Below are positions 3,664 to 52,398 of a stretch of DNA of 64,000 bases, in pieces. This DNA comes from Thermococcus camini (GTDB lineage: Archaea > Methanobacteriota_B > Thermococci > Thermococcales > Thermococcaceae). Below the pieces are notes generated by a model. It worked only from the letters and a program-made list of their open reading frames with translations. It made no database searches and was not told where the DNA came from. The stretch is from assembly GCF_904067545.1 (NCBI RefSeq), contig NZ_LR881183.1:686277-750276 (forward strand). Reading direction: 5' to 3'. A program made the translations under genes and the position numbers. Position 1 is the first letter of the stretch. Each line of letters begins with the position of its first letter.

Positions 3664-5145
3664 ATGCTGGAACTCGGCAAGCACATCAACATCTCGGACG
3701 ATCTGTTCGTGGTGAAGAACCTCATCGGCTCAATCCTTCAGGGCGTGGGCATCGCCTACCTCATCCCGGTGCTGCTGGCCTGGTTTTATCCGGAGGAGAT
3801 TAAGTACGTCACCTACTTCGCCCTCCCCGGGGCCGCCAGCGTCCTTTTCGGTGCCTGGCTGGCGAGGCACATGGGTAAAATTGAGGACGTCAATCTGAGA
3901 CAGGCAATGGTTTCGGCCGCATTCACCTGGCTTTTTGCCTCCGCCATAAGCGTCGTACCATTCATGTTCATAGCAGACATGTCCTTCATTGACTCATACT
4001 TCGAGAGCATGAGCGCCTGGACTGGAACCGGCCTCACCATGATGACCAATCTGGAGAGCTATCCCCATATCCTCCTCTTCTGGCGTGCCTGGATGCAGTG
4101 GCTCGGGGGAATAGGTATAGTTCTCGTCGCCCTCACCGTCCTCATACGTCCCGGCGTCGCCGCTGCTAGACTCTACCGGGCCGAAGCCAGGAGCGAGAGA
4201 ATCCTCCCCAACTTGGTCAATACTTCCAAGGTCATCTTCCAGATTTATTTTGTCCTGACCGTTGTGGGCGTCTACCTGTACTACATCAACGGCATGCCGC
4301 TCTTCGATGCGGTTACCCACTCCATGACAGGCCTGGGGACGGGTGGTATGAGCACCCACGACCTCAGCATCGGCTACTTCAACAGCACGTCCATCGAGGC
4401 GGTTACGATATTCCTGATGATAATGGGTGCCGTCAACTTCACGGTTCATTATAAGATGTTCGTCGGCAAGCACCTGAAGCCCTTCTTTGAGGACATCCAG
4501 GTCAGGTACATGTTCATTTTCCTCGTCCCCGCTGTGGCGATAACTGCCTACAGCCTCATCCAGGTGGGCGACAACGTGGGCGATTCCCTCCGCCAGGCGG
4601 TTTTTCACTCCGTCTCTGCAATAACGTGCACGGGCTTTGGCATAGCGGATCTCAGCAGGTACCCTGAGCTCGGCAAGTTCATAATCGGAATCCTCATGGT
4701 CATAGGTGGTGGTGCTGGAAGCACTGCTGGAGGTATAAAGCTCATCCGAGTCACGCTGATGTACGAGAGCCTCAAATGGACGATTCAACAGGCCATACTC
4801 CCCAGGGGAGCCATTATAAAGCGCAAGGTCGGCAGCTATCTGTTCACAGAGGAAGATATTCAGGAGGTCATGAGCTTCACGATAACCTACATCGCCCTGC
4901 TCCTCTTCGGAACCGTTTACACGATGCTCCGCATGGGAACCAGCCTCGTGGATTCCTTCTTTGAGGTGGCCTCAGCCCAGGGCAACGTCGGGCTGAGCGT
5001 GGGGATAACCTCAACGTACATGCCCGTCGATATGAAGGTGCTCCTCATCCTCCACATGTGGATAGGAAGGCTCGAGATATTCTCCACCCTGGTGTTCATC
5101 ATAAGCACGTTCTTCCTCGTTCCGAGGGTGGTGAGGGGCAGATGA
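3664..5145 (+). CDS. trkH: Trk/Ktr-type potassium transporter, TrkH subunit
   Basis: Start chosen at ATG 3664 after GGTGGG; the upstream extension overlaps map and is not membrane-like. The 493-residue integral membrane protein has the four membrane-pore-membrane units of the TrkH/KtrB superfamily. The pore-loop glycines show at TGTGLT, TGLGTGG, TCTGFG and GNVGLS, which build the K+ selectivity filter. It takes up potassium, a major solute in Thermococcales. TrkH normally works with a cytosolic TrkA/RCK ring; none is encoded here. Its stop codon overlaps the next start in ATGA, so it is probably translationally coupled to an ABC-type ATPase. Confidence 0.93.
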   Translation: MLELGKHINISDDLFVVKNLIGSILQGVGIAYLIPVLLAWFYPEEIKYVTYFALPGAASVLFGAWLARHMGKIEDVNLRQAMVSAAFTWLFASAISVVPFMFIADMSFIDSYFESMSAWTGTGLTMMTNLESYPHILLFWRAWMQWLGGIGIVLVALTVLIRPGVAAARLYRAEARSERILPNLVNTSKVIFQIYFVLTVVGVYLYYINGMPLFDAVTHSMTGLGTGGMSTHDLSIGYFNSTSIEAVTIFLMIMGAVNFTVHYKMFVGKHLKPFFEDIQVRYMFIFLVPAVAITAYSLIQVGDNVGDSLRQAVFHSVSAITCTGFGIADLSRYPELGKFIIGILMVIGGGAGSTAGGIKLIRVTLMYESLKWTIQQAILPRGAIIKRKVGSYLFTEEDIQEVMSFTITYIALLLFGTVYTMLRMGTSLVDSFFEVASAQGNVGLSVGITSTYMPVDMKVLLILHMWIGRLEIFSTLVFIISTFFLVPRVVRGR

Positions 5146-13619: not shown

Positions 13620-14354
13620 ATGGAAATGAACGTTCTCGAAATTTTTAACGAGGATCGCCTCCCCGGTGCCGTTGTTACGGTGATATACGACGCGTATTCC
13701 TCTGCGTGGAGGATCCCACTGCTTCTCCTCCGCAGGGCTATCGAGAGTGGTTATTTTGGGGTAATATCCAACTACACCGGCCCGCTGACCAATTTTATAA
13801 AACGGGCAGGTACCGTAGGTCTGGATGTAAGAACCGCCCTTGAAATGGGAGACCTAGCGATAATCGATCTGTTTGGAACCCGCTACAGTTCTCGGGCGGC
13901 CATGCCAAACGTCTTTTACCTCGACAAGGTCGAACCTGAAACGATCAACCCCAAAATCAGCCACATATACGAAACTGAGCTGGGGGAGGTGCTCTCGAAG
14001 AAAACGGCATTCCGATTGATATACACCCTCGAGGGTGCGGCCCTCATGCTCGGTGAGGAAAGCACGCTCAAACTTCTCAACCAGACCCTCGCCTCAAGGG
14101 GCACCCAGCTTCCCAACTCGACCCTGGTTCTTCCCATAAACCGCGATGTGGTCTCGGAGAAGTTCGTTGCCTGGGTGGCAGGTGTGAGTGATTACGTCCT
14201 CCTTGCCCGCTCCAGTTTTGAGCCGGATGGCATCAGGGAGTATCTGTATGCAATATCCTCCCCCTGCGAGGAGTTTGAACCAACGGCTTACCTCTTCAGG
14301 GTCACCGGAGGAAAGGGGACAGAAAAGCTAAAGGTAAAGAAGATCAGCCCCTGA
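13620..14354 (+). CDS. DUF257-like protein of unknown function
   Basis: The 244-residue protein looks like the Thermococcales-specific DUF257 group: a degenerate RecA/KaiC-like fold without a P-loop. It opens with an [15 protein letters not shown] strand, has a central AIIDLFG strand and ends in a basic KLKVKKISP tail. No catalytic residues can be assigned. Start chosen at ATG 13620 after GGGGTGGGAG; GTG 13611 and ATG 13626 are alternatives. Its end overlaps the convergent thrS by 11 bp. Family call moderate. Confidence 0.6.
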
Positions 14355-27979: not shown

Positions 27980-29245
27980 CTAGAGCTTAGCCCTCTCGAA
28001 TTCTTCCTTTCTCTCCAGCGGTTTGGTTGCGTCTATTCCCCACTTTGCTGTCAGGCTCTTCTCCGCAGAGGGGTCCAGGGAACTGCCCCTGGCGTTGGGG
28101 ATAACCACAAGGTCCCTGTCGGCCTGGAAGCGCGTTGCTATCGCCCATTCCACTTCTCTGTCGTCGTATATGTCCACGTCCTCATCCACAACGACCACGT
28201 GCTTCAGGCTCGGGTGCCCGGCGAAGGCAGCAAGAATCGCATTCTTTCCGTCCCCGTCGTGCTGTTTGGTTATGCTCACCACCGCGTGGAGCCACATCGC
28301 ACCGCCCTCGGTCAGTCTTACGCCGTGAACTCTGGGAACAACCCTCTTAACGCTCGCGTAGATCTGCGGCTCCTTCGGCAGGCCCATAAGCATGAAATGC
28401 TCGTAGCCGCCGGGGAGAAGGGCATGGAAAACCGGTTCATCGACGTGGTACATTCTCTCAAAGACCACCACCGGCTGCTTCCTCACGTAGTCGTAGGTTC
28501 CGGTTATATCGACGAACGGTCCCTCGTCGGTCAGCTCGGGGAGTATCTTGGCCCCGAAAACGAACTCCGTCTCAACCGGGACGGGTATTCCTCCGAGGTC
28601 GAAGACTTCGAGGGGTCTTCCAAAGGCCCTCCGACTCATCGCCGAGGCTATCTCAAGCTCGCTTATGCCGTAGGCCACGCTCGTGGCTCCGGCAAGGAGG
28701 ATGTGGATCGGGTTCCCGACGACTATTCTGACGTCCAGCTCCTCCCCAGCCTCTGCCTTTTCCTTCCACATAGCGTACAGATGCCTCGGAACGAGCCTTA
28801 TGGCGGCTCTTTTATCGTCAATGACCATCATCCTGTGGAAGGACATGTTGACAAAGCCATTCTCGTCCCTGGCTATGACCATGGCGGATGTGAAGTACTG
28901 ACCGCCGTCCTTGGGGTAGTACTTTGGAATCGGAAGCTCGGTTAGTGAGAAGTCCCCGGTTGAGTTCGCCATGAAGGGGGCGCCGTCAACCGTCCTGTAG
29001 GGTTCGGGATTTTCCATGGCCCATGTCATCGTGTGAAGTATCTCCTCCCTCTCGATACCAAGGTAAGATGCAATCCTTTCCCTGGTGCTCCAGATGTTGC
29101 CCGCGACTTCCCATCCGTCCACGTCTTTGAAGAGGACGGGCCTATCGCGGTACTTCAGAAGATAACGCGTTACCCCGAGCTCTTTGCTTACCTGCTCCTT
29201 AACAACGACTGCATCATCAAACCGTTCAATGATTTCCCCCAGCAT
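27980..29245 (-). CDS. UbiD-family decarboxylase
   Basis: The 421-residue prenylated-FMN-dependent decarboxylase fold has the family's conserved ExxR-type and metal-binding segments ([41 protein letters not shown]). In most archaea a UbiD homolog decarboxylates trans-anhydromevalonate 5-phosphate in the modified mevalonate pathway. This gene is a good candidate for that role, since HMG-CoA reductase and cis-prenyltransferase are also in the window, but other UbiD substrates cannot be excluded. It converges on the ABC operon with 3 bp between stops. Confidence 0.88.
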
Positions 29246-29312: not shown

Positions 29313-30713
29313 ATGCCTACGGTAACCCTCCGAATTCCCGATGGCTCCGCACTGGTTCGGATTGAGAAGGCAGATCCACAGGTGTATTTCAAAATCTACG
29401 AGCTGCTCAGCTACAAAAGGGACTTTGGCAAATGGGAAAAGCCAGAGAGCCTCTACGACCCATATGAGAAGACTTTTCCCGTTGGGGTTCTTCCGAGGGT
29501 CAAGAAGTTTCTCAACTGCAAGGGATACCGCGTCCGCGTGAAGGACGAGCGGCAGGTCAGGGGTGCCAAGCTGAACTCCACGTGGAACGAAAACTACAGC
29601 ATGCGCAGGTATCAGGAAAGGGCGGTTAAAAAGGCCCTCCGGGAGAAAATGGGTGTTCTGGCTCTTCCGGTTGGAAGCGGTAAGACCGTCGTTGGGCTGA
29701 GGATAATCCACGAGCTCGACCTCTCCGCGCTGATAGTCGTCCACACGAAGGAGCTTCTCTACCAGTGGGCGGACAAGGTTAGGGAAGTTTTGGGCGTTGA
29801 GCCGGGCATAGTCGGGGACAACAAATGGGAGGAGCGCGCCGTTACCATTGCCATGATACAGACCCTTCTCTCGAGAGGCGCGGAGAAGCTCCAGAACGAG
29901 TACGCGATCCTCATGTTCGACGAGTGCCACAGAACCTCCGCCGCCGAGAAGTTCTACCAGCTTGGCCTTTCGCTGCCCCAGGTATACCGCTTTGGCCTAT
30001 CTGCGACGCCGTGGAGGCGCATACGCGGTGAGGAGATCAAGATAGAGGCCGTTGTTGGGCCCACCATATTCGAGGTTCGCGCTGATGACCTCATAAAGGA
30101 AAAGTTCCTTGCGAAGCCGCGCTTTGAAATAATCACCTACGAGTCGAGCATGCCCTCCTTCAGCGAGCGCTACAAGGAACTGTACGAGGACATGATAATG
30201 AACAACGACGAGAGGAACCGGGCCGTGGCGGAGAAGGCCGCCGAGCTCGCCCGGAAGGGGCACCGAGTCCTCATCGACGTCAGGAGGATCGAGCACGGCA
30301 GGATACTCCGGAAGATGCTTGGCGAGATGGGCGTGAAGGCGGAGTTCCTGAGCTCAAAGAGCTCCAACCGCTGGGAGATACTTGAGGCGTTCAAGAACGG
30401 AGAGATTCCGGTTCTCATCTCGACACTCCTCAAGGAGGGCGTGGACATACCGGAGATTTCGGCGATAATACTTGCGGGAGGCGGCAAGAGCGATATCATG
30501 ACGATTCAGACAATAGGGCGCGCCCTGAGGCCGAAGAAGGGAATGAAGGCCGTTATAGTTGACGTTCAGGACGACGACCCCTTACTCTTCACCCACTTCA
30601 TCGAGCGGCAGAAGGCGCTCAAGCAGTACTACGGTAAATACTACGACAGGGAGATGGCCTCAAAGCTCGAGGAGAGTGTCACCAAAAAGGGCCGCCCTCG
30701 TAAGCGCTCTTGA
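29313..30713 (+). CDS. Superfamily II DNA helicase, XPB/Rad25-like
   Basis: The 466-residue helicase is related to XPB. An N-terminal damage-recognition-like domain (1-95) precedes the Q-region RRYQERAV. Motif I is LPVGSGKT, motif II the box MFDECH, motif III GLSATP, and motif VI TIGRALRPKKG. XPB's RED motif may correspond to RIRGEE. Archaeal XPB acts in DNA repair, often with the Bax1 nuclease, which is not adjacent. The start ATG 29313 is set by family length. Its 3' end overlaps truA by 54 bp in opposite orientation. Confidence 0.9.
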   Translation: MPTVTLRIPDGSALVRIEKADPQVYFKIYELLSYKRDFGKWEKPESLYDPYEKTFPVGVLPRVKKFLNCKGYRVRVKDERQVRGAKLNSTWNENYSMRRYQERAVKKALREKMGVLALPVGSGKTVVGLRIIHELDLSALIVVHTKELLYQWADKVREVLGVEPGIVGDNKWEERAVTIAMIQTLLSRGAEKLQNEYAILMFDECHRTSAAEKFYQLGLSLPQVYRFGLSATPWRRIRGEEIKIEAVVGPTIFEVRADDLIKEKFLAKPRFEIITYESSMPSFSERYKELYEDMIMNNDERNRAVAEKAAELARKGHRVLIDVRRIEHGRILRKMLGEMGVKAEFLSSKSSNRWEILEAFKNGEIPVLISTLLKEGVDIPEISAIILAGGGKSDIMTIQTIGRALRPKKGMKAVIVDVQDDDPLLFTHFIERQKALKQYYGKYYDREMASKLEESVTKKGRPRKRS

Positions 30714-31463
30714 GTAGCGTTCGAACAGGTCGCGTTTTGCTTTTTTGATTCCCCTTTCATCCGCCTGGAACTTCACGTCCGGGTATTCCATATGCCAGAG
30801 TATGAGTCCCTCGGGGGGCGCGGGGGGAACTTTTTTGCCATACTGTCCCTTGAGCATCATTTCGACCGTTTTGGGCTCCATGAGGCCAAGACCGCAGAAT
30901 CGGATTGCGTTAACTATTCTTCTCGCCATCTCCCACAGGAAGCTTTTTCCCTCGATTTCGATGATGTAGTAGCCCTGGCGCCCTATGACCTCAACCCGGA
31001 GGAGCTCTCTGATCGGATCCCTGCCGGGTTCAAGCCGGGAGAATGCCGAAAAGTCATGTTCGCCAACGAAGAGCGCCGCGCACTCTCTCATATCGCGCTC
31101 ATTGAAGCCCTCGTCAACCTGGTAGTAGCGGTAGGTCTTTGACCTCGCCTGGAACCTGGGGTGGAATCCCTCGGGAACCTCAGCAACGCCGAGAACCCAG
31201 AGATCCCTGAGGTGGTGGTTGAGAACCTCCGCGCGAACGAGGTCCGGTCTCGAGGCGACGTCAAAGGCCACGACGTTGAAGATTGCTGAAACTCCCCTGT
31301 CCGTTCTCGAGGCCCCCTTGAAGTTCGAGCTCTCGGCGTCCCTTATTATTCCGAGCTTCGACAGGGCCTTTATCAGCTCCCCTTCGACGGTTCTAACGTC
31401 GGGCTGCCTCTGAAAGCCATAGAACGCGCTGCCATCGTATGCCACTCTGAGTGCGAACCTCAT
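30660..31463 (-). CDS. truA: tRNA pseudouridine synthase A
   Basis: Makes pseudouridine in the anticodon arm (positions 38-40) of tRNAs. Start chosen at ATG 31463 (MRFALRVAYDGSAFYG), matching the family N-terminus; the frame to 31538 would read through the TATA box at about 31484-31491. The 267 residues carry the catalytic Asp in GASRTDRGVSA and the conserved FHPRFQARSKTYRYY and FLWEMARRIV segments. Converges with the helicase gene over 54 bp of shared coding DNA. Confidence 0.95.
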   Translation of the reverse strand: MRFALRVAYDGSAFYGFQRQPDVRTVEGELIKALSKLGIIRDAESSNFKGASRTDRGVSAIFNVVAFDVASRPDLVRAEVLNHHLRDLWVLGVAEVPEGFHPRFQARSKTYRYYQVDEGFNERDMRECAALFVGEHDFSAFSRLEPGRDPIRELLRVEVIGRQGYYIIEIEGKSFLWEMARRIVNAIRFCGLGLMEPKTVEMMLKGQYGKKVPPAPPEGLILWHMEYPDVKFQADERGIKKAKRDLFERYSRALTRAALFGDTLLEL

Positions 31464-31625
31464 GGTTGTTGGATGGGCCAGAGGGTATAAATGTCTTTTC
31501 CACGGTGCTGGTTGATACTGCGACGGATTATTTTGCAAATGTAAACCTCAATTTTGGATGCTGTTCAAGCGGGAGCGAGAAAAATTGATAAACCACGTCC
31601 ACAAAGTGTACCCGGAGGTGGGAGG

Positions 31626-31721
31626 ATGGATGCGATAATAGGGATTGAGGTGCTTGAGAACGTGACGAACTTCGAGATAATGTGCGCCCTTCTGGAGAAG
31701 AGGATAAAAATAGAGGATTAG
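31626..31721 (+). CDS. Candidate 31-codon small protein gene
   Basis: An ATG follows GGAGGTGGGAGG, a near-perfect ribosome site, with a TATA-like ATTGATAAAC at about 31583-31593. The 31-residue product begins MDAIIGIEVLENVTNFEI and ends KRIKIED: acidic, one probable amphipathic helix, with a single Cys. The stop TAG overlaps the convergent pheT stop by 4 bp. Arrangement of promoter, ribosome site and ORF argues for real translation. I know no homolog. Confidence 0.5.
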   Translation: MDAIIGIEVLENVTNFEIMCALLEKRIKIED

Positions 31722-33505
31722 AGGTACGGCGCCCGATAGAGCGGCCTTAGGAACATTTCAAACGCCGCCACGGGCATTTCTATTCCCCAGTTTTCCAGGA
31801 CTGCCGGGTGGACCTCCCCGATGATGCCGATCGGTTTTCCTTCGACGACTATTTTTCCTGCCCTCCCCGGAATGAAGCTCGGATGATCAATGCCCTCGAG
31901 CTCGTACCTGAAGCCGAGGTGGTGCATCACGCTCTCAAGTATCTCCTTGGCCTCGGTGAAGGTAACGCGCGGGTGGGCGAGGGCAACAGCCAGCTTGCTC
32001 TCACTGACCGTTTTGGTCTCCCTGCTCTCGTCTATGAGTGTAGCCTTTCCGACCTCGAAGATTCTCTGCGGGTACTCCTCGTGGGTGTTCTGGCTCAGGA
32101 AATCGAGGAGGCTTGGGATGAGCCAGACCCTCAGGGCGGACCACTTGGGGCTTATGGGGTTCTCTATCTCGACGAGCTCCGCCGGCGGGTGGCTGAAGCG
32201 GTCCTCACCGGGTTCGAGCAGCATCTTTCCGTACTGGGATTCCCTGTTCGTCAGGTTGAAGGTCATGACCTCCTGGAGGCCGTAGCCGACCATGAGCTCC
32301 CTGACGGCATCCTCGAACTCGATGAACTTGTCGCCCCTTCCCTGGACGGCAAGCTTTGGCTCCTCAGGTTCGATCTCGTTATAGCCGTAGGCTATGAGGA
32401 CATCCTCCAGAACGTCGCGGGCGTGCATTATGTCGTCGCGGAAGGCGGGATAGAGGAGGTTTGCCTTCCCGTCAACCAACTTGACATCGTACATCATTCT
32501 CTCGAGGAGGTCTTTGATCTCCTCGTCACTCAGCTCGAGCCCGGTGAGCCTCTTGATGTAGTCGAGCTCAACCTTGAAGGATTTGGGAGTTAAATCCGGT
32601 GTTTCAATTACTAACCAATCTGTTAGTTTCTCAATAGTTCGTAGTTTATCTTCAACATCCGGGGCTAAATAACTAACTAACTCATTAATATCCATATCAG
32701 GGTATACTACTTCCACACTCTTTATCTTCCCCCCGCGTTCAGCTAAAGCGGTAACCACGACGTTCAAAGCCAGCATGACTTTGTTCAGGTCCCAGCCGGT
32801 CACGTCGATGAAGACGTTTCTCGTCTCCGGGGTCACCCTGCCGGTTATCTCGGAGTTTATAATCGGGGGCATCGAGAGAACCTTACCCTCGCTGTCCACG
32901 AGGAGCGGGTAGTAGGGCTTGTCCTTGATGAGGTGGCCATACTCCCTGCCCTTCTCGTGCTTCTCAAGTATCTCCTCGAGAGTCATCTCCTCCTCGAAGC
33001 CCAGCGGAACGAACTTCTCGCTCTTCTCAGCGGCGCGGTAGTATATTGGCGGCTTCACCTTATCAAAGTCGAAGATGCCTATGGCGACCTCTCTTCTCCT
33101 CCTCCCGAAGGTTAAGGCCACCTTCTCCTGGAGGTTGATCATCTGCTTTAGCGCCTCTTCATCGAGGTTCAGTCCCTCAACTATTGCGTAGACACCATAC
33201 GGGCGGATGTTCTTCAGCTTCCCGTCAACGTAAACCGTTACGCCGCTGTCTTCCACTTTGTACCCGGGAAGACCGCTCTCGAAGCCGAGCGCCCAGCGTA
33301 TCTGCCTTGCTATTCCCTCGGCGCTCCAGAGGTCGGGCCTGTTGGTGTCCTTTGAGTCTGCCTTGAAGTAGATTTCACCGTCCTCCTCCCAGACGTCGTC
33401 CAGCTCGCACTTCGCGTAGAGGAAGAGGTCCTCCCACTCCTCAACGGTGAAGGTCTTCCCGACGAGCCTTTCCAGATCCCGCTTTGACACATCGAACTTG
33501 GGCAT
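31718..33505 (-). CDS. pheT: Phenylalanyl-tRNA synthetase beta subunit
   Basis: The 595-residue archaeal-type beta subunit is shorter than bacterial PheT and lacks the N-terminal tRNA-binding domain. B3/B4 editing and B5 parts are visible (DTNRPDLWSAEGIARQI, KSFKVELDYIKRLTG, FRDDIMHARDVLEDVLIAYGYNE). With PheS it makes the (alpha-beta)2 enzyme that charges tRNA-Phe. Start ATG 33505 follows GAGGTGAT, 9 bp after pheS. About 32586-32745 has strikingly AT-rich codons (TTA, GTA, AGT, CTA) unlike the rest of the gene. Confidence 0.95.
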   Translation of the reverse strand: MPKFDVSKRDLERLVGKTFTVEEWEDLFLYAKCELDDVWEEDGEIYFKADSKDTNRPDLWSAEGIARQIRWALGFESGLPGYKVEDSGVTVYVDGKLKNIRPYGVYAIVEGLNLDEEALKQMINLQEKVALTFGRRRREVAIGIFDFDKVKPPIYYRAAEKSEKFVPLGFEEEMTLEEILEKHEKGREYGHLIKDKPYYPLLVDSEGKVLSMPPIINSEITGRVTPETRNVFIDVTGWDLNKVMLALNVVVTALAERGGKIKSVEVVYPDMDINELVSYLAPDVEDKLRTIEKLTDWLVIETPDLTPKSFKVELDYIKRLTGLELSDEEIKDLLERMMYDVKLVDGKANLLYPAFRDDIMHARDVLEDVLIAYGYNEIEPEEPKLAVQGRGDKFIEFEDAVRELMVGYGLQEVMTFNLTNRESQYGKMLLEPGEDRFSHPPAELVEIENPISPKWSALRVWLIPSLLDFLSQNTHEEYPQRIFEVGKATLIDESRETKTVSESKLAVALAHPRVTFTEAKEILESVMHHLGFRYELEGIDHPSFIPGRAGKIVVEGKPIGIIGEVHPAVLENWGIEMPVAAFEMFLRPLYRAPYL

Positions 33506-37051: not shown

Positions 37052-38278
37052 ATGAACGTGGAGGAACTTGTGGAGAAAGTGGCCAGCGGAGAAATAAAGC
37101 TCCACCAGGTTGAGAGGTACACAAACGGTGATAAGAAACTCGCCACTGAAATAAGGAGGAGGGCGCTTGAAAAGAAGCTCGGTGTTAGCCTTGAGAACAT
37201 AGGGCACTACTCGATAGACCCCGAGAGGGTCATAGGCAAGAACATCGAGAACATGATAGGCGTCGTCCAGATACCGATGGGAGTTGCCGGCCCTCTTAAA
37301 ATCAACGGGGAATATGCCAGGGGCGAGTTCTACATCCCCCTCGCCACCACTGAGGGAGCGCTGGTTGCAAGCGTCAACCGTGGCTGCTCCGCCTTGACAG
37401 AGGCGGGTGGGTTGAAGACCACGATAATAGACGACAAGATGACCCGAGCGCCCCTCCTCAAGTGCCCCGACGCGAGAAGAGCCAGGGAAGTCGCCGAGTG
37501 GGTAAAGGCTAATCTCGACTACCTCCAGGAGAGGGCCGTCAGCAAGGTCACCAGACACGGAAAGCTGAGGGACGTTAAGCCTTACATCGTCGGCAACAAC
37601 CTTTACCTGCGCTTCGAGTTCGAGACCGGAGATGCCATGGGCATGAACATGGTCACCATATCAAGCGAGGAGATAATGAAGGTCATCGAGGAGCACTTCC
37701 CGGACGTGAAGTACCTCGCCCTCTCGGGCAACCTCTGCGTGGACAAGAAGCCGAACGCGATGAACTTCATCAACGGCCGTGGGAAGACCGTTATTGCCGA
37801 GGCCATAATCCCGCGCGAGATAGTCGAGAAGAAGCTGAAAACCACTCCGGAGCTCATAGCCGAGGTCAACTACAGGAAGAACCTCATCGGTTCGGCCCAG
37901 GCCGGTTCCTATGGCTTCAATGCTCACTTTGGGAACATAGTCGGTGCAATCTTCCTTGCCACCGGCCAGGACGAGGCCCAGATTACCGAGGGCTCGCACG
38001 GCATAACCCTCGCGGAGGTTACCCCCGAGGGAGACCTCTACATCAGCGTCACCATGCCGAGCCTTGAGATTGGAACGGTCGGCGGAGGAACTCGCGTCCC
38101 GACCCAGAGGGAAGCCCTGAGCATAATGGGCGTTGCCGGCGGCGGAGATCCGCCCGGTACAAACGCCAGGAAGTTCGCGGAGATAATAGCCGGTGCAGTT
38201 CTTGCAGGGGAGCTTTCCCTTCTGGCGGCGATAGCGGCGAAGCACCTGGCGAAAGCACACGCCGAGCTGGGGCGTTAG
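37052..38278 (+). CDS. hmgA: HMG-CoA reductase, class I
   Basis: Reduces HMG-CoA to mevalonate with NADPH, the committed step toward archaeal isoprenoid lipids. The 408 residues match archaeal class I enzymes, which lack the membrane anchor of eukaryotic ones. Catalytic residues are visible: Glu in TTEGALVAS, Lys in the NLCVDKKPNAMN region, Asp in TGQDEAQ, and the C-terminal His in AKHLAKAH. Start ATG 37052 follows GGAGGTG, 17 bp after the MinD-like gene, so the two are likely one transcript. Confidence 0.96.
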   Translation: MNVEELVEKVASGEIKLHQVERYTNGDKKLATEIRRRALEKKLGVSLENIGHYSIDPERVIGKNIENMIGVVQIPMGVAGPLKINGEYARGEFYIPLATTEGALVASVNRGCSALTEAGGLKTTIIDDKMTRAPLLKCPDARRAREVAEWVKANLDYLQERAVSKVTRHGKLRDVKPYIVGNNLYLRFEFETGDAMGMNMVTISSEEIMKVIEEHFPDVKYLALSGNLCVDKKPNAMNFINGRGKTVIAEAIIPREIVEKKLKTTPELIAEVNYRKNLIGSAQAGSYGFNAHFGNIVGAIFLATGQDEAQITEGSHGITLAEVTPEGDLYISVTMPSLEIGTVGGGTRVPTQREALSIMGVAGGGDPPGTNARKFAEIIAGAVLAGELSLLAAIAAKHLAKAHAELGR

Positions 38279-39533: not shown

Positions 39534-41420
39534 TCAGCTCAGCTCCTGGATCTTCTTCCTCACGAGCGAACTGACGAGCTTTCCGTCTGCCCTTCCACGA
39601 AGCTTCGCCATGGCCCTGCCCATGACCATTCCCATCGCACCCATTCCCTTGGCCTTGATGACTTCGATGTTCGCCTGAACGACCTCGTCTATTATCCTCT
39701 CGACCTCTTCCTCGCTGAGCAGCGTTAGGCCCTTCTCCTCCGCCACCTGGGCGGCGCTCTTCTCGGGGTTCCTCGCCAGCTCCTTGAATATCTCCTCGAA
39801 TGCTTCCTTGGCTATCTTTCCACCGAGGTACAGGTCGAAGGCCTCTCTGATGTGTTCATCGGTGATATTCTCGATGGGTGCCTCCTTCTTGAGTCCCTTG
39901 AGGACCACCACGAGGATTGAGGCGGCTAAAGATGGCTTGATGCCCCTGGCTATCAGCTCCTCGAAGAGCTCGTCACGCTCGTCGTTCACCAGGGTTTCTG
40001 CTAAGCTTCTGTCTATCCTGTACTCCTTCACATAGCGGTCGACGCGCTCCTGCGGGAGCTCGGGCAGGTTCGCCAGTACATCGTCCTTCATCTCCGCCGT
40101 GAGAAGTATCGGCGGTATGTCCGTCTCCGGATACATCCTGGCCTTGCCCGGGAGCGGGCGCATGTACTGGGTGTTTCCATCAGGCAGGGCCCTCCTGGTC
40201 TCCTCTGGCACTCCCTCGATGGCCTCCCTCGCGCGCTGGAGAACCTCCCGGAGGGCGTTCTTTGCGGTTTCCTCCTCGGCCGCGACGAGAACGAACGCAT
40301 CCTCTCCGCCGAGACCAAGTTTTTCAATAACTGCATTAACCTCTAATTCTGTAATTCCATAGTTAGGCAGTTCATCGATGTGGAAGATTCCCTTCACGTA
40401 CTTCTTGGCCCTGTCCGCCATCTCGGTGCCGAGTCTCCTTCCTGGCTGTATCTCCTTGCCTATAAGCCCGCGGAACTTGGGGAGTTTTATTGCCAGGACC
40501 TTTCCGCCCCTCTTTACCGTGCGGGCGATTATCTTCGAGCCGGTGTTCTCGAATATATCCGTAACGTCGTGGAACTCCTCCCTTATGTCCTCGGGCTTGA
40601 CCCCGCGCTTCCTCAGCTCCTCGCGTATTTTGAGCAGGTTCACCTGCCTCTCAATCTCGCGCTCGATGATGACGGGTATCATATCGAGCTCCTGGACACC
40701 TTTGATTTCGACCCTCGCTCCTCCCCTGATGGAGACGTTCAGGTCCTGCCTGATGGTTCCAAGACCGCGCTTGACCTTTCTCGTCGCCCTGAGCGCGTCG
40801 CCGATGTACTTGGCGACCACCTTCGCCTGCTCCGGGTGGTGTATGTCCGGGGTTGTGCTTATCTCCACCAGTGGAATGCCGAGGCGGTCGAGGCGGTAGA
40901 TGACCTCCTTCTCTCCCCTCTCGACTATCCTGCACGCGTCCTCCTCAAGGCATATCGTCGGAATGCCGACGCTTCCCCAGGGGGTGTCCACCTTTCCGTT
41001 CATGGCGATTATCGCGGTTCTCTGGAAGCCGGAGACGTTGGAGCCGTCTATGACTATCTTGCGCATGAAGTGGACCTCGTCAACGGGGGTTGCGTTGAGG
41101 AGGTAGCTTATCTGGAGAGAGACCCTGAGTGCCTCCTCGTCCGGCATGTGGGGAGGCTCCTCATCCATGTAAACGAGGTCCGCCAGCCTGTAGTTGCCCT
41201 CGTAGATGTAGGTTTTTCCCTTCTTGAATTCTTCAAGCGCGGCTGGATCGATTTCACCGAGCTCGCTTATCGTCGGCCTGAGCCTGCGCTGGAAGGTGAA
41301 GTCCACCTCGTCGCTCATCTCGCTGGGAACCGGGGAGAACAGTCTCCTCGTGTCGAGCTGTCTGTGTATCTCAAGGCCCACCTTGAGGCCAAGCTCCTCG
41401 TAGTTGAACTTCCCGGTCAT
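39534..41420 (-). CDS. gatE: Glu-tRNA(Gln) amidotransferase subunit E
   Basis: Binds Glu-tRNA-Gln, phosphorylates its Glu and uses ammonia from GatD to make Gln-tRNA-Gln, the archaeal route. The 628 residues include the GatB-like cradle ([13 protein letters not shown], the cradle motif [18 protein letters not shown]), the AspRS-like insertion and the C-terminal YqeY-like tail ([18 protein letters not shown]). The start ATG overlaps the PIN toxin stop in ATGA, and its ribosome site GGAGGTG lies inside the toxin's last codons. Codons at 40320-40375 form a short AT-rich patch. Confidence 0.96.
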
Positions 41421-50518: not shown

Positions 50519-52300
50519 TCAGAGGCCAGCGAGGTACTCCATAAGGGCCTCGGCGGCCATCCTGGTCTCGTTCCTGGTGGCACCGGCGACGATGACGACG
50601 TCGTAGCCGCCAAGGGCGCCCTCGATGTACTCGATGTCGCCTGGGCTGTTCACCCAGTCGACCGTGCTGATGTTGTTCTCGACGAGGTACTTGGTGAGGC
50701 TGTTGGCAACCGGACCACCAACGAGGATGAGGTTGGCTCCCGGGTCCTCCATGCTGACCTCGTAGTCCATGACGGTTATCGGCGCGCTGACCGGCTTGAG
50801 GGTGATCTGGTCAGCGGTGGCGTGGATCTCACTGACGACGTAGTCGGTGTCGAGGACATCGTCGCCGACCTTGAGCTCCTTCTCGACGACCTTGCCCTCC
50901 TTCTCCTTGAGCCAGATGTGGGCATAGGCGACGACGAAGTCCTTGTCCTCCTTCTTACCGTCGCCGTTGATGTCGTAGTCGACCTTCTTCTCGTTGAGGG
51001 TCTTGAGCTGGAAGTGGTACCAGAGGTCGTAGGCACCGAAGATGTCGACCGGGTTGCCCTCGAGCTTGTCGAGGTTGGTGAGGGTGACGTTCTTGATGTA
51101 GTCGCCGTCGGTGGCGATGGTCATCTTCCACTTCTTGCCATCGTAGGTGATGGTGTCGCCGCTCTTGTAGTCCTTGACGTCGACCTGGGCGTCGATGCTG
51201 GCTATGAGGTGGCCGTCGATACCGACGAAGGTGTCCTTGAGGGTGAGTATAACGGCACCGTCGTTGAAGACGTCGACCGGGGTGTCCTTCTCGAGGATAA
51301 CCTGGTTGCTCTCCTTGCCGGTGACGGCGTTCTTAACGACCGCAAGGGCCCTCTGGTCAATGATGCTTATGTCGAGGACGGTGACGACCCAGTCGGTACC
51401 CTCGATGGCCTGCGGCTCGCCGACCTGGTACCACTCAGTCGGCTTGTCGAGACCGGCGGTGAAGGTACCGTTTCCAACGTCGAGGACGTAGTAGGTCTCG
51501 CCGAAGACGGTGAAGGTCTGTCCGGCTTTGACACCCTCCTTGTAAACGGTTCCGCCGGTTCCCTCAGCAGCGTCGCCGATGTACCAGCTGGTCTTGTTCT
51601 CGTAAACGGCCGGAACGCCCCACTCCGGGTAGGCGTCTCTTACCTTCTCCTCCTTGGTAACGGTGTAGTTGTAGAGGACGTAGTCAACGAAGACGGTGAC
51701 GTTGCCCGGGGTGACGACGAGGTCGGCGTCCTTGGGCGGCCTGCTCTTGTCCCAGTTGCTCGGGTCCTTGGACTTGAGCTGGACGTTCTTGAGGGTGACG
51801 TGCCAGTCGACGAGCTGCTCGTCACCGATCTTGTCCTTGTCCTTGATGGTGGTGGTGACCTGGAAGTTGCCCATCCAGTCGCTGTAAGCGACGTTGTAGC
51901 CGCCGGCACCGTTGTACCAGTAGTCGCCCGGAAGCTCGGTGTACTTGGTGGCCCAGGCGGTCTGGTTCCTTATGGTGCTGGCGTTGTAGGCGTAGATGGT
52001 CCAGCTGTCGACGGTCTCGGGCGGGTACTCGGCCTTGATCTTGACGTAGTCTCCCTGGACGTCGACCTGCTCCTTGGTGTAGAGCAGGCTGCCGAGGGCA
52101 ACGGCTATGTCAGCGGCGCTGGCAACGTCCATAGCAGCAGCGGTACTTCCAACGACGATTTTAACTGCCGGAGTTCCATCGGCGTTAACGAAGAAGTCCT
52201 TCGGTATGTTCGGGACGGTCGGCTGAGCGCTGGCAAAGCCCATGGTGGCTCCAACCATTGCGGCACCAACAGCGAGCGCCGCGATCTTTTTCACTTTCAT
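50519..52300 (-). CDS. S-layer protein
   Basis: The 593-residue main surface-layer protein is of the Thermococcales type. The signal peptide is about 1-25 (AALAVGAAMVGATMGFASA, then QPTVP). The mature part is a beta-rich, acidic, Asp/Thr/Val-rich protein with many NxS/T sequons and a C-terminal segment resembling a sugar- or cohesin-like fold (VDWVNSPGDIEYIEGALGGY). Codon use is extremely biased to GTC, GAC and AAG, as in very highly expressed genes. The ribosome site is AAGGAGGTG. It forms the paracrystalline cell coat. Confidence 0.93.
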   Translation of the reverse strand: MKVKKIAALAVGAAMVGATMGFASAQPTVPNIPKDFFVNADGTPAVKIVVGSTAAAMDVASAADIAVALGSLLYTKEQVDVQGDYVKIKAEYPPETVDSWTIYAYNASTIRNQTAWATKYTELPGDYWYNGAGGYNVAYSDWMGNFQVTTTIKDKDKIGDEQLVDWHVTLKNVQLKSKDPSNWDKSRPPKDADLVVTPGNVTVFVDYVLYNYTVTKEEKVRDAYPEWGVPAVYENKTSWYIGDAAEGTGGTVYKEGVKAGQTFTVFGETYYVLDVGNGTFTAGLDKPTEWYQVGEPQAIEGTDWVVTVLDISIIDQRALAVVKNAVTGKESNQVILEKDTPVDVFNDGAVILTLKDTFVGIDGHLIASIDAQVDVKDYKSGDTITYDGKKWKMTIATDGDYIKNVTLTNLDKLEGNPVDIFGAYDLWYHFQLKTLNEKKVDYDINGDGKKEDKDFVVAYAHIWLKEKEGKVVEKELKVGDDVLDTDYVVSEIHATADQITLKPVSAPITVMDYEVSMEDPGANLILVGGPVANSLTKYLVENNISTVDWVNSPGDIEYIEGALGGYDVVIVAGATRNETRMAAEALMEYLAGL

Positions 52301-52320
52301 TTCCCAACACCTCCTTAACT

Positions 52321-52398
52321 TTGGGCTTACGCCCTAGGATGGTCTAACATGTGTTGTCAATGACTTTCTACCGACTTCAGGTATATATACTTTTCGCT
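52321..52398 (-). promoter_or_regulatory. Strong S-layer promoter with structured leader
   Basis: Reading the minus strand, a purine-rich BRE (CGAAAAG) runs into TATATATA at 52382-52390. The predicted start is near 52358, giving a leader of about 55 nt. The leader contains a 4-bp stem with a GTAA loop (GGGC-GTAA-GCCC, 52323-52334), a GNRA-type tetraloop, 22 nt before the ATG. The other part of the 200-bp gap (52399-52499) holds nothing I can name. Confidence 0.7.

Follow-up and report, generated by a model that had tools for sequence, protein, structure and literature searches.

The pheT gene, which encodes the beta subunit of an archaeal-type phenylalanine--tRNA ligase, occupies positions 31718-33505 of the minus strand as an open reading frame of 595 amino acids, within a 64,000-nucleotide stretch of the Thermococcus camini genome that is referred to here as the window. 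Phenylalanyl-tRNA synthetase is an essential enzyme. The genome to which the window belongs (G000) consists of one contig of 2,022,529 bp and is 99.84% complete; pheT gives a single match within it. The protein matches NCBIfam TIGR00471 (pheT_arch) over residues 1-584 with 564.9 bits (E = 1.6e-169), above the curated cut-off of 282.65. The sister genome G012 is syntenic and aligns to 99.2% of the window with 90.9% identity, and pheT outside the patch described below is 90-91% identical to its sisters. A first-pass annotation of the window had pointed to an AT-rich tract with deviant codons in pheT, and this tract is real, presenting a GC3 of 0.17-0.20 against 0.77 elsewhere in the gene. No other stretch of 30 codons in 66 mechanically chosen ORFs of the window deviates as strongly (z = 6.8), and the tract has the lowest GC3 among the 68 window ORFs matched to G012, where the runner-up displays a GC3 of 0.23 that is equal in G012. 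The limits given at the time were 32586-32745; the codon comparison places them slightly wider, at about 32570 and 32773. A tract in gatE (40290-40379), previously taken to be of similar kind, is common to the sister G012 (GC3 of 0.30 vs 0.33, 93% nucleotide identity) and is, as judged from this comparison, conserved and not imported. Other places of the window with low GC3 include one at 13788 (0.37 vs 0.57 in G012) and one at 5013-5102 (0.23, equal in G012), the latter perhaps partly 5' of the start codon of its ORF.

The core of the pheT tract is an AT-rich, in-frame insertion of 27 codons located between the B3/4 and B5 domains, whose borders were taken from Pfam. It extends from about 32609 to 32689 on the minus strand (residues 273-299 as aligned), with an uncertainty of a few codons since two alignments differ slightly. 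PheT sequences from 79 of the 94 family genomes were aligned, leaving out 14 genomes of at least 80 contigs and the single-contig G102. The insertion is missing from 76 of these 79 Thermococcaceae proteins, all of which present loops of equal length (typically ...VVYPDFEIETPDL...). Inserts at this place were found only in G000, G076 and G085, and thus an AT-rich tract common to all relatives, which the first-pass annotation had proposed as the sign of constraint, is not what the family displays. The protein had also been described as uninterrupted; the frame is indeed open, but the presence of 27 codons absent from 76 of the 79 aligned orthologs had been overlooked. Gene conversion without insertion, as the tract was then worded, is ruled out by these 27 extra codons at its core. 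Relative to G012, the pheT insertion is the sole in-frame indel of at least three residues in 68 non-overlapping window ORFs, and in the comparison with relatives the best stretch of each ORF alone was considered. The ORF at 50522-52333 aligns to G034 with many gaps in a match of just 34% identity, and was taken for a paralog.

The net number of extra codons at this place is 27 in G000, 34 in G076 and 35 in G085, in frame in all three genomes. The GC3 of the inserts is 0.20, 0.37 and 0.46, respectively, against 0.77, 0.77 and 0.70 in their own genes. In a FastTree phylogeny of pheT computed without the tract (support values not printed), the three carriers occupy three separate places, each beside insert-free sisters, which are G012 and four others for G000, G081 for G076, and G027 and G090 for G085. 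The G076 and G085 inserts are identical at 17 of 38 residues (z = 8.8), and this level of similarity indicates that they are homologous. The G000 insert resembles that of G076 (shuffle p = 0.006), its similarity to the G085 insert is not significant (p = 0.11), and on these alignments it is probably related to the other two. The comparisons of insert similarity and flank identity were made without G088, owing to a motif filter. Assuming independence, which does not hold for the G076 and G085 inserts, the chance that three inserts of this composition and length would be both open and multiples of three is ~1.7e-5.

The predicted structure of G000 PheT retains the fold of the Pyrococcus horikoshii protein (PDB code 2cxi), with a TM score of 0.94 by target length and an rmsd of 2.0 over its 347 residues. 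Unlike G000 PheT, 2cxi, a structure of N-terminal PheT, carries no insert, and its positions matching query residues 273 and 300 adjoin each other. The G000 insert is modelled as two helices extending from residues 273 to 280 and 284 to 294 (block pLDDT of 47-59, low confidence), and a separate model of the G076 protein presents helices at 278-287 and 291-302 of that protein (block pLDDT of 35-53, low confidence). The insert may therefore be described, at low confidence, as a predicted helical hairpin. PheRS editing has been localised to the B3/4 domain, according to the accessible part of PMC3275996. Because the insert sits in the loop between the B3/4 (editing) and B5 domains, the enzyme would be expected to tolerate it.

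Relatives and a donor of the insert were searched for at several levels. The 179-nt tract has no full-length match in the other 114 genomes of the class, and across all 115, G000 included, the insert is covered by G000's own match only, the remaining matches being short or belonging to the pheT flank and reaching the edge of the insert. Each carrier genome, G000, G076 and G085, contains one full match to its insert and no further copies; three short DNA matches of the G000 tract within its own genome (17-20 nt) lie inside long ORFs and not in repeat arrays. In protein searches of the 94 family genomes, the G076 and G085 inserts retrieve each other (E of 3.7e-4 and 7.7e-4), while the G000 insert retrieves itself only, apart from weak matches outside pheT. 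No convincing relative outside pheT was found in these genomes with any of the three queries (best E of 0.04-0.8 per genome); the weak outside matches, nine of which, from the G000 and G076 queries, were inspected by eye, displayed no sign of a shared family. None of the three inserts matches Pfam or PHROGs. Plasmid and phage records returned short matches only (E of at least 0.2) to the G000 tract as DNA and only matches with E of at least 2 to the G076 insert as protein, viral contigs had no match to the G076 insert or to the window PheT, and solved structures had none to the G076 insert. An origin of the insert in a phage, plasmid or virus was rejected, as the G000 tract, its PheT and the G076 insert gave no significant match. 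Intein features are likewise missing, with no splicing or endonuclease domain in inserts of 27-35 net codons that lack a Pfam match. Among the open PMC papers listed, as judged from titles and abstract beginnings, none describes this pheT insertion.

Divergence extends from the insert into the sequence on both its sides, and insert plus flanks form an apparently foreign patch spanning codons 245-312 (about 32570-32773, minus strand), in which many flank codons differ from both the sister clade and G013, a genome of another lineage about 15% apart from G000. Codons unlike both the five sisters and G013 amount to 20 of 38 in the flanks (245-270 and 301-312) against 20 of 528 elsewhere, with a Fisher p of 7e-16 that is flattered by the patch edges having been read from the same data. 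When synonymous codons alone are considered, 20 of 33 comparable flank codons are private, compared with 14.7% overall. Relative to G012, differences occur in 26 of 37 flank codons and are synonymous in 22 of these. The flank patch is the top-scoring synonymous tract (25/37) in 65 window genes. The GC3 of synonymous flank codons is 0.42 in G000 and 0.74 in four sisters; changes from GC to AT number 20 and the reverse 5, compared with 67 and 44 for the remainder of pheT, and the flank changes comprise 17 transitions and 16 transversions. The best match to the flanks is found in G089, of the same genus, at 83% of 108 nt, the sisters reaching 69-70%. In a phylogeny of these 108 nt (55 of 79 rows), G000 has an end branch of 0.61 and the grouping with the sisters is not rejected (AU p = 0.37), a result that speaks neither for nor against transfer.

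A similar flank patch is observed in G085 (13/38 vs 30/381, p = 2e-5), and G076 has none (6/38 vs 45/381, p = 0.44). The G085 patch is GC-richer than its sisters (0.76 vs 0.54) around an AT-rich insert, and a single AT-rich donor genome thus does not explain all carriers. Tract scans covered the 50 genomes for which a relative at 88% or above exists; among their private segments, the top two scores belong to G085 and G000, both at the insert site. Restricting the scan to synonymous changes places the insert-free G096 at the top (residues 235-273, near the site), G000 second and G085 fourth. The insert-free pheT of G003 (L004) also displays a private diverged tract, at codons 312-324 in insert-free numbering (16 of 36 sites), a short distance from the insert site. 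A general recombination hot spot at the pheT site was considered and not adopted; insert-free genomes also have tracts there.

The patch is embedded in a mosaic neighbourhood. On one side of it, 32340-32579 (minus strand) presents identities of 0.96 and 0.93 to G013 and of 0.87 and 0.84 to G012, while on the other side, 32820-33179 (minus strand) presents 0.93, 0.93 and 0.97 to G013 and 0.92, 0.89 and 0.85 to G012. With G013-like parts on both sides, the insert patch thus appears to lie in a pheT that was itself already a patchwork of two lineages. Further along, 209 nt at 29700-29908 (plus strand) form an exact run of identity to G013, flanked on each side by sister-like sequence; within this run, a part matches G013 at 122 of 122 positions and G012 at 80% over those 122 nt. 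This run has the signature of a recent short recombination tract, which we take it to be, and 209 nt identical to another species so close to pheT make exchange itself hard to doubt. The segment 28500-28979 is 97-98% identical to G013 and 85-92% to the sister G012, and more identical or near-identical runs to G013 are observed at 28137-28979 and 37130-38073, with exact runs of up to 199 nt (37733-37931). Clustered synonymous differences relative to G012 were detected at p of 0.01 or less in 12 of 65 window genes (0.65 expected), the scan covering ORFs with at least 80 usable codons; 11 of the 12 tracts have the lower GC3 on the G000 side, and pheT has the highest score. Such clusters could also reflect uneven rates, and some of the tracts do have a donor. 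At 30825-30926, in the ORF at 30660-31538 of the minus strand, synonymous divergence is accompanied by a GC3 of 0.39 vs 0.70 in G012; a search for the donor of the 30815-30936 tract found none in the 94 family genomes, the best match being 79%.

These observations suggest that about 200 bp of pheT were probably replaced by homologous recombination with an allele of another Thermococcus that carried the 27-codon insert, and on the available alignments the source of this allele is best read as a relative outside the genome sample. The first-pass annotation had offered a gene-conversion tract from an AT-richer, Pyrococcus-like relative or selection for low GC. Conversion is retained here as the best reading; a Pyrococcus-like donor is unsupported, as the flanks are nearest to G089, of the same genus. 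Selection for low GC accounts neither for the insertion nor for flank codons that are unlike both lineages present in the rest of the gene. The replacement may have begun with DNA of an insert-bearing relative entering the cell by natural transformation or by another route. In its accessible text, PMC5099854 describes natural transformation for Thermococcales, in Pyrococcus and Thermococcus. The incoming DNA would have paired with pheT through its homologous flanks, a patch of about 200 bp being copied in and the insert being carried along as a heterology between them. The insert would then be translated, would form a small hairpin of helices and would hardly alter the enzyme. Gene flow would pass an old allele bearing the insert from lineage to lineage, with no need for the peptide to arise afresh each time. 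We infer the route of transfer and the neutrality of the insert, as well as one old origin common to all three inserts.

Several alternatives to this replacement have to be weighed. The insertion could have arisen locally, the flank substitutions representing indel-associated mutation by error-prone repair with no import, an explanation that we regard as unlikely but as a genuine rival. Accessible parts of PMC3114760 report mutation of this kind over hundreds of bp in prokaryotes and eukaryotes, and it would fit the unrejected sister grouping and long G000 end branch of the flank tree, the excess of changes toward AT and the lack of a donor among the class genomes. As in those clusters, substitutions crowd around the pheT indel; unlike in the parts of that report considered here, 26 of 37 flank codons are off G012, mostly at synonymous positions and through both transitions and transversions, and the neighbourhood holds demonstrable imports from another lineage. 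The flanks are, in addition, nearer to G089 than to the sisters, and indel-associated mutation alone leaves the same-place inserts of G076 and G085 unexplained. The pheT place could also be home to a small, horizontally travelling insert allele, spread either by homing-like biased conversion, in which a nuclease encoded elsewhere would cut sites that lack the insert, or by selection directed against an attacker of phenylalanyl-tRNA synthetase. If true, such an allele would account both for the recurrence in three lineages and for the flank patches in two, and we consider it distinctly improbable.

A mobile in-frame element that targets this place, resembling the Rickettsia palindromic elements or homing through an endonuclease supplied in trans, is held to be very unlikely. 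The shared position of the inserts in three lineages, each having insert-free sisters, flank patches like those of co-conversion in two of three carriers, and inserts that are all AT-richer than their own gene would agree with it, as would the imperfect hairpin formed by the G000 insert (z of -1.6 to -2.0, over a range chosen post hoc). The insert is, however, single-copy in G000, and its three versions have neither a convincing relative outside pheT in the 94 family genomes nor a Pfam or PHROGs match. The plasmid, phage and viral searches with the G000 tract, the window PheT and the G076 insert gave no significant match. Neither the G076 nor the G085 insert is palindromic (fold z of +1.7 and +1.9), and the inverted-repeat p of the three inserts is 0.25, 0.99 and 0.99; a palindromic element was rejected as two of three inserts have no palindrome. 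That an AT-rich block within an essential gene is removed before translation as a bulge-helix-bulge intron, or is the scar of an excised integrative element, is highly improbable. The reading frame stays open through each of the three inserts, whose lengths are all divisible by three, and protein similarity is kept between those of G076 and G085 (17/38 residues); the inserts thus look translated. Since 99.2% of the window aligns with the syntenic G012, there is no gap next to pheT in which an element could reside. An assembly or sequencing artefact has next to no likelihood: the genome is a single, nearly complete contig, the insert is open and in frame, and two further assemblies, of which one is a single contig, carry inserts at the same place.

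Known systems provide partial parallels to the replacement by recombination proposed here. Discontinuous homologous recombination in short tracts has been described in Sulfolobus, in the accessible portions of PMC3914695 and PMC4471258, and, as there, patches of another lineage are interspersed with recipient sequence around pheT. The pheT case differs from what those portions describe in that it involves Thermococcus lineages about 15% apart, is read from genome sequence, and includes one patch that brings a 27-codon insertion and has no donor match among the class genomes. Like the Rickettsia palindromic elements, as presented in the accessible part of PMC10969869, the insert is a small in-frame insertion in a housekeeping gene; unlike them, on the same partial account, it is a single copy in one gene, is not a palindrome in two of three carriers and lacks convincing relatives in other parts of the family genomes. 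If the proposed replacement is true, small insertions can reach an essential gene within patches of about 100-200 bp recombined between Thermococcus lineages, and an indel in a core gene would thus not have to reflect vertical descent. With inserts recurring at a single point in pheT, there is a defined locus for examining whether exchange of this kind is neutral, under selection or driven. Separately, a second and smaller indel site, variable among Thermococcaceae PheT proteins, was observed at column 486 of the pheT alignment.
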